Positions 28,400-31,383 of a DNA stretch of 64,000 bases are shown here, one piece after another (within the stretch, counting starts at the first letter, position 1; the number at the start of each line of letters is the position of its first letter). The stretch spans positions 186,001 to 250,000 of the forward strand of contig CABYIV010000001.1 of assembly GCA_902519255.1 (NCBI GenBank), given 5' to 3'. The stretch is from an uncultured Pelagibacteraceae bacterium (GTDB lineage: Bacteria > Pseudomonadota > Alphaproteobacteria > Pelagibacterales > Pelagibacteraceae). The notes beneath the pieces were generated by a model. The model made no database searches. It was not told where the DNA came from and saw only the letters and a list, made by a program, of their open reading frames with translations. A program made the position numbers and the translations under genes.

Positions 28400-28732
28400 A
28401 TGATTGTTGCTTTAAAAAAAAATACTTTATCAAAAAAATTTATTGCTCTGTTTATCACATTAACAATAATTTTTTTAAATGGATGCCAAACAATTAAAAA
28501 GAAATCTGATGAAGTGGCTGAAAAAGAGAATGAAAAATTTGGTCAATTCGTTGGAAAAGAAGTTAATGAGATGAGATTAGAATTAGGCTCACCGTCAGAA
28601 GATTTTGTCAATGAACTTGGAAATGAAATGCTTATCTACAAAACAAAAAAATATGGAATTCCTTGTGAAAGAAAATTTGAGGTGAATGCATCAGGGGTTA
28701 TTATCGGATTTAGCTCTAGTGGATGTATTTAG
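28400..28732 (+). CDS. Small lipoprotein with SmpA/BamE-like fold
   Basis: The 110-residue protein has a lipoprotein signal ending LNGC (about residue 29). The mature part is about 80 residues: a charged linker (KKKSDEVAEKENEKF) and then FVGKEVNEMRLELGSPSEDFVNELGNEMLIYKTK. The glycine-rich G-xx-xxxxxxxLG-P pattern resembles SmpA/OmlA/BamE domains. A C-terminal pair of cysteines (GIPCERKF, SSSGC) could form a disulfide. It may be an outer-membrane assembly accessory or a general periplasmic lipoprotein; the exact role is unknown. Confidence 0.65.
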   Translation: MIVALKKNTLSKKFIALFITLTIIFLNGCQTIKKKSDEVAEKENEKFGQFVGKEVNEMRLELGSPSEDFVNELGNEMLIYKTKKYGIPCERKFEVNASGVIIGFSSSGCI

Positions 28733-28733
28733 T

Positions 28734-28756
28734 CTTGTGGGGACTAGCCCCACAAG
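28734..28756. terminator. GC-rich hairpin between convergent genes
   Basis: CTTGTGGGG-ACTAG-CCCCACAAG is a perfect 9-bp stem with a 5-nt loop. It starts one base after the lipoprotein stop and ends 8 bp before the end of convergent hsp20. It stands out from the A/T-rich background but has no T-run on either side, so it may stabilise 3' ends rather than act as a classic rho-independent terminator. Confidence 0.6.
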
Positions 28757-28764
28757 CAAGGTAC

Positions 28765-29211
28765 TTATTTAATTTCAATAAGTTTCTTTTTTTTATGTTC
28801 CGGGATAATCCTTTCACATGCAATTGTTAAAAGACCATCTTTTAACTCTGCACCATTCACTTTTACATCATCAGCAATTGTAAATGATCTCGCAAATTGT
28901 CTTTGCGATATACCTTTATGGATTATCTCTCCATCTTGATTTTTGTTTTCACTTCTATCAACTTGTTTAGTTCTTACAGTTAATAGATTATCTTCAAACT
29001 CTACCTCAACATCTTTTTTGCTAAAACCAGCTAAAGCAACTTCAATTGAGTAGTTATCTTTGCCAGTCCTTCTTATGTTGTAAGGCGGGTAGTTTGATTG
29101 CATACTTAAACCACCATTGCCCAACATGCTTTCGAATTGGTCAAACATATCGTCAAAACCAATAGAGAAAGGCCGAAGTGAGTTGAAAATTGATAGATCC
29201 TTACTTGTCAT
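28765..29211 (-). CDS. Small heat shock protein (Hsp20/IbpA-type)
   Basis: The 148-residue ATP-independent holdase binds unfolding proteins. It has an N-terminal arm (FNSLRPFSIGFDDMFDQFESML) and an alpha-crystallin domain (about 38-135) with YNIRRTGKDNYSIEVALAGFSKKDVEVEFEDNLLTVR and GISQRQFARSFTIADDVKVNGAELKDGLLTI. The IPEHKK tail only partly resembles the I-x-I/V motif. This is the alphaproteobacterial class A-like pattern. It has an AAAGGAGG ribosome-binding site embedded in a ROSE-like hairpin and a sigma32-like promoter, so control by heat at both transcription and translation is expected. Confidence 0.94.
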   Translation of the reverse strand: MTSKDLSIFNSLRPFSIGFDDMFDQFESMLGNGGLSMQSNYPPYNIRRTGKDNYSIEVALAGFSKKDVEVEFEDNLLTVRTKQVDRSENKNQDGEIIHKGISQRQFARSFTIADDVKVNGAELKDGLLTIACERIIPEHKKKKLIEIK

Positions 29212-29270
29212 ATTATCCTCCTTTAATTAAGCAAGTTTATTTATTGCTAGCCCCATTAGGCGACTAACAA
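29212..29270 (-). ncRNA. ROSE-like RNA thermometer in hsp20 5' UTR (candidate)
   Basis: The minus-strand leader contains two stems. Hairpin 1 is UUGUUAGUC/GGCUAGCAA (29244-29270), nine pairs including G-U, with an inner CC/GG extension. Hairpin 2 pairs CUUGCUU (29229-29235) with the Shine-Dalgarno AAGGAGG (29217-29223) around loop AAUUA, with a G opposite G in the middle and one U-G pair. UUGCU opposite the SD with an internal G-G is the core of ROSE thermometers known upstream of small heat shock genes. The predicted transcript starts at hairpin 1. No folding was run. Confidence 0.6.
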
Positions 29271-29274
29271 AGTT

Positions 29275-29303
29275 TATATGGTAATTAATTTTGATATTTC
29301 AAG
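29275..29303 (-). promoter_or_regulatory. Sigma32-like promoter of hsp20 (CTTGAAA-N15-CCATATA)
   Basis: On the minus strand CTTGAAA (29303-29297) and CCATATA (29281-29275) are separated by 15 bp, matching heat-shock promoter boxes. The -35 box begins 2 bp from the stop codon of the upstream peptidase gene. The start site is predicted near 29268, giving a leader of about 57 nt that begins at the first hairpin. Confidence 0.65.
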
Positions 29304-29304
29304 A

Positions 29305-31383
29305 TCAGGTGTTTAATTTTCCAGCTATTTTCAAAGCGAACGCGTAGTCAACTGCAATCTCCTCAATTGCTCCATCTCTTCCAGATTTTCCTCCATGACC
29401 TGCATTCATTTCTGTTTTTAATAAAAGTAAATTGTTATCCGTTTTGTAATCTCTTAATTTTGCAGTAAATTTTGCTGGCTCATCAAATAATACCCTGTTA
29501 TCACTTAGACTTGTTGTTATCAAAATGTTTGGGTAATCCATCTTTTTAATATTGTTATAAGGCGCATATGAAAATATGTAATCAAAGTGTTCTTTTTTAT
29601 CTTTAGCATTTCCAAATTCATCAAATTCGCCGACTGTTAATGGTAACGAATGGTCTAAGTTCGTGGTCAACGAGTCAACGAAAGGAACAGCCATAACAAT
29701 TCCCAAAAATAAATCAGGCGCTTGGTTAACAACGGCTCCCATTAAAAGACCTCCAGCAGATCCACCCATTCCAATAATATTGCCTTTAGATGTAAACTTT
29801 TTTTCAATTAAAAAATTTGCAGAAGCAATGTAATCTTCAAATGTATTCTTCTTGTTTAATAATTTTCCTTCTTTCCACCATTTCATTCCTTTTTCCATAC
29901 CGCCTCTAATATGAGAAGTTACCCATATAATATCTCGCTCTATTAAACTTATTCTTGTTGAAGAAAAACTTGGTGACATAGAACTACCGTAAGATCCATA
30001 CCCATATAATAATAATTTTGCAGATCCGTCTAATTTAGTTTTTTTATGTCTTGTTATGGTAATAGGAACCATTCTTCCGTCATGAGAGGTACACTCTAAT
30101 CTTTCAACTATGTAGTCATCAGAATTATGGCCACTAGGAATCTCTTGTTCTTTAACTAATTTTTTCTCCTTTGTTTTAAGATTGTATAGGTAAGTCCTTC
30201 CAGGAGTTTTTGGTGATGAATATGACAAATAAACGGTATCAGTATTTCTATCTCTTTGAGTTAATGAAACACCAGGTACTATAACTTTTTCATCTGAAAA
30301 AAATATTTCTTCTTCTTCATTTTTTGGATTTCTTAATATTAATTTTGATAATGCATTAGAAGTTTCAGATCTTATAATCCAATCATTTAAAAAAATTAAT
30401 CCTCCAATTAAAACCTCATCTCGTGCAGGTATAAATGTTTCCCACTCCTTTTTTTCTAAATCATTTGTCTTTTCGATCTTAAAATCTTCTGCATCTTCAT
30501 TTGTATGTTTATAGAAATTACCATTCCATGAATTAACAGAATATATTATCCCTCTTTTTCTTTTATCAATTAGTTTTGGTTTTGGAATTATTTCATCTGC
30601 TTTAAAATAATACTGTTCGGACGTATTATGATCAGATGACGTAATAAAAAAATACTTTTCGTCAGAGCTAAGACCTATTCCTACAGTAAATGCTTCACTT
30701 TCTTCTTTAAATATAAGAATATCTTTACTAGCAGGAGCACCAATTTCATGCCTGTAAATTTCTCTTGGTCTGTGATTGTCATCAAGCTTAGAGTAAAAAA
30801 TATATTTGTCATCTAAGCTAAATGTTATTCCACCACTTGTATTTTCAATTTTTTCACCAACTTGCTCTCGACTTTTAATATCTCTTATATGTATAGTGTA
30901 ATATTCAGATCCTTTTAAATCTAATGAATAAGCTAGTAATTTATCATTATAGCTAACTTCTAAGTCTCCAAGCCCAAAATATTCTGTTTTAAGCTTTTCT
31001 TTTTCTAAATCACCATTCCAAATTTCTTCTATTTCATCAGAATCAATTTTCTTTCTTAACTTTATAGAATAATTTCCTTTTGTTGTTGTTTTTGTCCAGT
31101 AACTATATCTTACATCTTTAAACGGAAGAGACTCATCATCAAGTTTAATTCTTCCTTTAATCTCATCGAATAAAATTTTTTGAATTTCTTTTGTATCTGA
31201 CATTTGATGACTAAAATAATCATTTTCATCTTCAAGATATTTTCTCACCTCTGGCAATAATTTTGAACTATCCTTCAATACTTCAAGTATATTTTCCTGA
31301 TGTATCCAACTATAATCGTCTTCCCAAGTTACGTTGTGACAAGATTTTAATTCTGGTTTTTTTTTAAGCTGTGGTATTTTCAT
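29305..31383 (-). CDS. ptrB: Oligopeptidase B (S9A prolyl-oligopeptidase family)
   Basis: The 692-residue serine peptidase has an N-terminal seven-bladed beta-propeller (about 70-400) and a C-terminal alpha/beta hydrolase domain. The nucleophile serine is in GMGGSAGGLLMGAVVN. The catalytic Asp is likely in SLSDNRVLFDEPAKF, and the His in MNAGHGGKSGRDG. YGYGSYGSSMSPSFS and HIRGGMEKGMKWW are typical of oligopeptidase B, which cleaves short peptides after basic residues in the cytoplasm. There is no signal peptide. It diverges from a J-domain gene with just 17 bp between starts. Confidence 0.94.
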   Translation of the reverse strand: MKIPQLKKKPELKSCHNVTWEDDYSWIHQENILEVLKDSSKLLPEVRKYLEDENDYFSHQMSDTKEIQKILFDEIKGRIKLDDESLPFKDVRYSYWTKTTTKGNYSIKLRKKIDSDEIEEIWNGDLEKEKLKTEYFGLGDLEVSYNDKLLAYSLDLKGSEYYTIHIRDIKSREQVGEKIENTSGGITFSLDDKYIFYSKLDDNHRPREIYRHEIGAPASKDILIFKEESEAFTVGIGLSSDEKYFFITSSDHNTSEQYYFKADEIIPKPKLIDKRKRGIIYSVNSWNGNFYKHTNEDAEDFKIEKTNDLEKKEWETFIPARDEVLIGGLIFLNDWIIRSETSNALSKLILRNPKNEEEEIFFSDEKVIVPGVSLTQRDRNTDTVYLSYSSPKTPGRTYLYNLKTKEKKLVKEQEIPSGHNSDDYIVERLECTSHDGRMVPITITRHKKTKLDGSAKLLLYGYGSYGSSMSPSFSSTRISLIERDIIWVTSHIRGGMEKGMKWWKEGKLLNKKNTFEDYIASANFLIEKKFTSKGNIIGMGGSAGGLLMGAVVNQAPDLFLGIVMAVPFVDSLTTNLDHSLPLTVGEFDEFGNAKDKKEHFDYIFSYAPYNNIKKMDYPNILITTSLSDNRVLFDEPAKFTAKLRDYKTDNNLLLLKTEMNAGHGGKSGRDGAIEEIAVDYAFALKIAGKLNT

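Follow-up and report, generated by a model that had tools for sequence, protein, structure and literature searches.

The hsp20 gene of an uncultured Pelagibacteraceae (SAR11) bacterium is probably preceded, as judged from sequence comparison, by a ROSE-type RNA thermometer whose anti-Shine-Dalgarno strand has a candidate competing partner in the coding region. The window, that is, the whole 64,000-nucleotide stretch of DNA analysed, carries the following features at this locus.

28765 to 29211, minus strand: hsp20, the putatively regulated gene, an open reading frame for a small heat shock protein of 148 amino acids (Pfam HSP20, E 1.4e-17).
29200 to 29206, minus strand: candidate coding-region competitor AAGUAAG in codons 2-4 (+6 to +12), 7 bp to CUUGCUU with one G-U.
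29217 to 29223, minus strand: Shine-Dalgarno AAGGAGG, the 3' side of hairpin 2 (from sequence, conservation and fold).
29229 to 29235, minus strand: anti-Shine-Dalgarno strand CUUGCUU, which contains the ROSE U(U/C)GCU box; its G at 29232 is left unpaired (all 28 leaders of the unbiased set read CUUGC(U)).
29244 to 29270, minus strand: hairpin 1, with the arms UUGUUAGUC / GGCUAGCAA, a bulge at G29261 and an apical CC/GG that closes the loop UAAU (from covariation and fold).
29276 to 29283, minus strand: putative -10 element TACCATAT (from sequence; a CC(C/T/A)ATAT-like form is conserved).
29298 to 29303, minus strand: putative -35 element, CTTGAA, in a promoter of sigma32 (RpoH) type (from sequence and conservation).

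The ATG of hsp20 occupies 29211-29209 of the minus strand and is preceded, in this order, by CTTGAA, 14 nt, TACCATAT, hairpin 1, CUUGCUU, AAUUA, AAGGAGG and AUAAU. Since a prolyl oligopeptidase gene ends upstream at 29305, the short intergenic gap is filled by the hsp20 promoter and leader. The sequence at 29303-29276 (CTTGAA-N14-TACCATAT) agrees with the sigma32 consensus CTTGAA-N13-18-CNCCATAT quoted in PMC3669281 and is a putative promoter, from which transcription of hsp20 probably starts at about 29269-29270. Of 130 unique leaders, 129 carry a loose TTGA / CCATAT-like pair, 124 of them with one and the same spacing, and a TTGAA...CCATAT-like promoter is present in all 28 same-genus leaders selected by protein (described below). 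When the window's own assembly (84% complete) was searched with the RpoH model, only an RpoD-sized match and no RpoH gene was found. RpoH scored above the cut-off in 6/6 complete relatives, so the sigma factor is expected in the window's genome, and its absence from the assembly probably reflects missing sequence. Beyond the other end of hsp20, a strong inverted repeat (CTTGTGGGG-CTAGT-CCCCACAAG, 28733-28764, minus strand) that lacks a T run separates the convergent ends of hsp20 and a 110-aa ORF at 28400-28732 on the plus strand.

The two hairpins proposed by the sequence-only reading are both present. In hairpin 1, UUGUUAGUC (29270-29262) pairs with GGCUAGCAA (29252-29244) over the nine base pairs described, although only the inner 7 of the 9 are conserved; to these we add a bulge, G29261, and at the apex two C-G pairs (29260/29259 with 29253/29254) closing the loop UAAU. 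In hairpin 2, CUUGCUU (29235-29229) lies opposite AAGGAGG (29223-29217) around the 5-nt loop AAUUA, and by sequence G29232 faces G29220, as had been claimed. Folding of the 62-nt leader returned exactly the structure described earlier, at -15.9 kcal/mol, against -8.9 +/- 2.4 kcal/mol for dinucleotide shuffles (z -2.96; 1/200 as good). Nearest-neighbour energies gave no sharp opening at 20-40 °C; the G-G mismatch is poorly modelled by them. Conservation across leaders is much stronger support for the hairpins than the fold of a single sequence.

Among 60 relatives and the window's own genome, hsp20 is present in 50 genomes. From the same genus, 28 leaders (the window's own genome included) were chosen by protein match rather than by RNA. 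Both hairpins are found in 28/28 of them, as is CUUGCU opposite AAGGAG, with one leader carrying an altered base on the Shine-Dalgarno side. We also scanned 85,462 species genomes, one genome per species, with a degenerate leader pattern, which gave at least 120 matches. Of the 120 matches listed, 119 immediately precede hsp20 in SAR11 records (Pelagibacteraceae, Ca. Pelagibacter and similar names), which places the window in SAR11. The remaining match, in Pelagicoccus, has no hsp20 in its locus and was rejected as chance. The G of the motif, the candidate for the G-G opposition, is invariant in all 146 leaders, having been required by the pattern in the pattern-selected leaders and not required in the 28 protein-selected ones. 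The sequence-only reading had staked its claim on conservation of CUUGCUU/AAGGAGG in relatives and had proposed a search for covariation; CUUGCU/AAGGAG is conserved, and covariation across the relatives' hsp20 leaders is strong in hairpin 1.

The covariation of hairpin 1 was measured on 101 distinct pairs of arms in a gapless alignment anchored solely at the GCC-loop-GG apex. Counted from the apex, positions 2-7 are paired in 96% of cases; shuffling the arms lowers this to 81% (at most 84%). Over all nine positions 86% are paired in register, against 22-44% when the arms are slid. Among 71 distinct rows, 97.5% of the cells are paired versus 90.2% after shuffling (slides do not exceed 69%), and 61 cells have changed on both sides versus 12.6 in shuffled rows. 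The bulged G and the apex are conserved beyond base pairing.

Hairpin 2 (CUUGCU against AAGGAG with the unpaired G) is almost invariant within the genus, so its covariation there is weak and includes no double-sided compensation. An RNAalifold consensus recovered hairpin 1 and missed hairpin 2, owing to this near-invariance and to a one-base shift between forms. The forms differ in the bases that flank the invariant CUUGCU: A...U with GGAGG (n=77), C...A with GGAGG (n=40), A...U with GGAGU (n=16) and U...A with GGAGG (n=5). The C-form loses a pair at the loop and gains one at the base. By counts, the base that precedes CUUGCU is perfectly associated with the apical base of hairpin 2. On the tree only 2 supported pairs of changes remain, too few independent events, and we leave this compensation as suggestive. 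In a set of 24 sequences across families, 11 of 15 pairs are double-changed, three of them in hairpin 2, but these sequences were fitted to the model and the set is biased towards it. No second copy of the element was found in the same genome.

The reading of this leader as a two-hairpin ROSE element in a SAR11 genome gains support from the HSP20 domain of the encoded protein, from the sigma32-type promoter, from the U(U/C)GCU box with its unpaired G against the Shine-Dalgarno sequence and from the covariation of hairpin 1. By sequence it has the marks of the class: it leads a small heat shock gene, the box faces the Shine-Dalgarno sequence in the 3'-proximal hairpin, and a stable covarying hairpin lies 5' of the sensor hairpin. 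The Rfam search that had been suggested gave a mixed answer. RF02523 (ROSE_3) matched the leader end to end, at 23.3 bits (E 0.0079 over 301 nt), below its curated gathering cut-off of 43 bits. In relatives the corresponding site scores 22-35 bits, the best within the genus reaching 28.3 bits. RF00435 (ROSE) and RF01832 (ROSE_2) had no match up to E 10, the leader matched no Rfam family at gathering score, and a genome-wide search for ROSE_3 with strict filters returned noise only. As far as sequence features were examined, the SAR11 hsp20 leader is ROSE-like in every one, yet it falls outside the present Rfam threshold.

The sequence-only reading had missed that AAGUAAG in codons 2-4 is fully complementary to CUUGCUU. 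These codons, ACA AGT AAG, are frozen at their synonymous sites: among 139 unique coding sequences, ACA is found in 138/139, AGT in 137/137 serines and AAG in 137/137 lysines, while elsewhere AGT (14-22%) and AAG (14-20%) are minority codons. From codon 7 onward the third positions of hsp20 are far more variable. The codon bias over codons 2-6 amounts to 8.6 bits, against 0.3-3.8 bits in 8 control families from the same loci. AAGTAAG is the sole heptamer of the hsp20 coding sequence that pairs fully with CTTGCTT, and the chance of such a heptamer in the start region is about 0.8%. The full hexamer match at +7 is present in 129/130 SAR11 leaders. It is kept in another SAR11 genus (ATGAGTAAG; 7/7, with the codons one position earlier) and is found in 0/28 hsp20, rpoH and dnaK leaders of other lineages, one of which is a further SAR11 genus. 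Where missense changes occur at codons 3-4 (L081, L023), the pairing is mostly retained via G-U. The codon pairing shows no covariation, since the anti-Shine-Dalgarno and codon strands are both invariant. Two further observations concern the same stretch. Codon 6 (29196-29194) is CTA in 119/137 sequences against a usage of 5-10% elsewhere, which the proposed pairing does not explain, and the third base of codon 3 (U9, 29203) is always that of AGT and never AGC, although C pairs better with G. Predicted folds show codons 10-14 as a fourth strand that would sequester codons 2-4; this idea was dropped, as codons 5 and 13 lack covariation.

Once 12 nt after the ATG are added, the predicted fold switches: CUUGCUU lets go of the Shine-Dalgarno sequence and takes AAGUAAG of codons 2-4 as its partner. 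In all four leader forms the model favours this codon pairing over the Shine-Dalgarno hairpin, by 1-6 kcal/mol; when 36-120 nt of coding sequence are included, the predicted ensemble is mixed. In the modelled codon-paired conformer the Shine-Dalgarno sequence is open at about 0.8.

From these data we propose that the leader would be transcribed from an RpoH promoter near 29270, and that a stable hairpin 1 would stand beside a weak hairpin 2, whose CUUGCU(U) strand would cover the Shine-Dalgarno sequence and leave one G unpaired. Warming would melt hairpin 2 and give the ribosome access. In the Pelagibacter group the CUUGCU strand could alternatively pair without mismatch to codons 2-4 and thus have two partners. 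In one conformer the Shine-Dalgarno sequence would be masked; in the other, codons 2-4 would be locked and the Shine-Dalgarno sequence would lie in a 22-nt loop. Both pairings would hinder initiation at low temperature and both would have to open on warming. That CUUGCU(U) exchanges between the two strands, and that selection froze the codons for this second partner, is a tentative reading to which we give a little less than an even chance. We read the SAR11 leader as bistable or as a double lock, the latter being favoured because a helix over codons 2-4 should block the 30S subunit too. The temperature response, the effect on translation and the role of the codon pairing are what we infer for this leader.

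A plain ROSE element, with codons 2-4 frozen for an unrelated cause such as a Shine-Dalgarno-like decoy (AAGGA, +10 to +14) or some other signal in the RNA close to the start codon, is a quite plausible explanation, though one we would not expect to prevail. AAG GAT does create AAGGA, and hairpin II of the Pseudomonas thermometer is sufficient alone (PMC3669281). Pairing accounts neither for the frozen codon 6 CTA (119/137) nor for the constant U9, and A6 is frozen though unpaired in one leader form. A decoy Shine-Dalgarno sequence, however, could do without AGT at codon 3; moreover the frozen stretch is the very heptamer, unique in the coding sequence, that pairs fully with CUUGCUU (about 0.8% by chance), and the missense changes at codons 3-4 mostly preserve that pairing by G-U (L081, L023).

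The main alternative to the double lock for the pairing of codons 2-4 is that it represents the ON state, in which the Shine-Dalgarno sequence is freed, and that warming or the ribosome shifts the strand to the codons. The unpaired Shine-Dalgarno sequence (open about 0.8) of the modelled codon pairing, which is the more stable conformer, would fit this. That conformer is, however, modelled as more stable at all temperatures, so the gene would be ON in the cold too, and the 30S subunit would be expected to meet an obstacle in a 7-bp helix spanning +6 to +12. We consider this alternative unlikely.

Less likely still is a leader that serves as a protein-binding site, for example for autoregulation by the small heat shock protein, rather than as a thermometer. 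E. coli IbpA represses itself through its own leader, and the conservation of the bulged G and apex of hairpin 1 beyond base pairing could be read in the same way. Against this, U(U/C)GCU facing the Shine-Dalgarno sequence together with a sigma32 promoter matches known thermometers, and the same fold ahead of rpoH and dnaK (see below) speaks for heat as the signal. That the hairpins arose by chance in AT-rich DNA, an idea for which the modest fold score of the single sequence (z only -2.96) and the Rfam score under the cut-off could be cited, is refuted by conservation and covariation over more than 100 distinct leaders and has a negligible probability.

The element is kept in other genera of the family. 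A covariance model of the SAR11 leader, run blind over 386 alphaproteobacterial genomes, found hsp20 leaders in other families and, with weaker matches, two rpoH and two dnaK leaders. After retraining on hsp20 leaders alone, the model gave 25 matches outside the training set at E up to 0.02: 11 hsp20, 3 rpoH and 5 dnaK leaders and 6 that look like chance. The rpoH and dnaK genes were identified by reading the downstream protein sequences (LSLYLTEISKFPMLDAEQEYMLAKRY; IGIDLGTTNSCVAVMDG) and not by domain search. None of these leaders reached an Rfam gathering score. In other alphaproteobacteria with small genomes, ROSE-like leaders immediately precede rpoH (L171, L176, L246 and L248, at about 1501-1569; E 4e-6 to 1e-3 with hsp20-trained models); in the SAR11 rpoH leader examined, no ROSE-like element was seen. 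Those of dnaK (L249, L251, which is the same place as L186, L256, L259, L260 and L188) have a UUUGCC / CUUGCU box against the Shine-Dalgarno sequence, come from several alphaproteobacterial families and score more weakly. A second type of leader precedes hsp20 in a neighbouring family, with a UUAAUCGCUUAAGGAGGAUUAA-like outer stem around the Shine-Dalgarno sequence and an upstream hairpin of its own (L029, L030, L233-L238, L178).

The closest known system is the Pseudomonas ibpA ROSE element, an experimentally proven thermometer of 62 nt with two hairpins and a sigma32 promoter (Krajewski 2013, PMC3669281), in which removal of the unpaired G (with U38C) locks the thermometer. These short ROSE-like thermometers are probably the source of RF02523. 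The SAR11 leader resembles it in its two hairpins, its length of about 60 nt, the U(U/C)GCU box against the Shine-Dalgarno sequence with an unpaired G, the stable conserved hairpin 1, the sigma32-type promoter directly upstream and the small heat shock gene; it differs in the sequence of hairpin 1 and in the added frozen partner in the coding region. With the classical ROSE element of Bradyrhizobium hspA (ROSE1, RF00435) and the enterobacterial ROSE_2 it shares the position in a small heat shock leader, the U(U/C)GCU box and a non-canonically masked Shine-Dalgarno sequence, but those elements have three to four hairpins and their Rfam families do not match the SAR11 leader. In the meningococcal fHbp thermosensor (PMC4999090) the coding region also participates in thermoregulation; there it pairs with the ribosome-binding site, whereas we propose that in SAR11 it pairs with the masking strand. 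RNA thermometers and SAR11 meet in a general remark in PMC2864753. Stav 2019 (PMC6429828) lists an unnamed 'possible RNA thermometer' in the SAR11 strain HIMB5, and the main text of that paper does not give its gene, sequence or mechanism. It comes from the same clade and may be the same as the hsp20 leader, and the bare thermometer would then not be new. What the comparison suggests as new is the frozen codons, which point to a second partner of the anti-Shine-Dalgarno strand that is undescribed for ROSE elements in the literature compared.

Regulators are scarce in SAR11 bacteria, and the way in which these cells perceive warming matters to ocean ecology. A conserved leader of this kind would work without a protein sensor and makes the question directly testable. 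Through its matches ahead of rpoH and dnaK in other alphaproteobacteria with small genomes, the covariance model further suggests ROSE-like leaders there; if so, this type of control would reach beyond small heat shock genes and include the main chaperone as well as the sigma factor.
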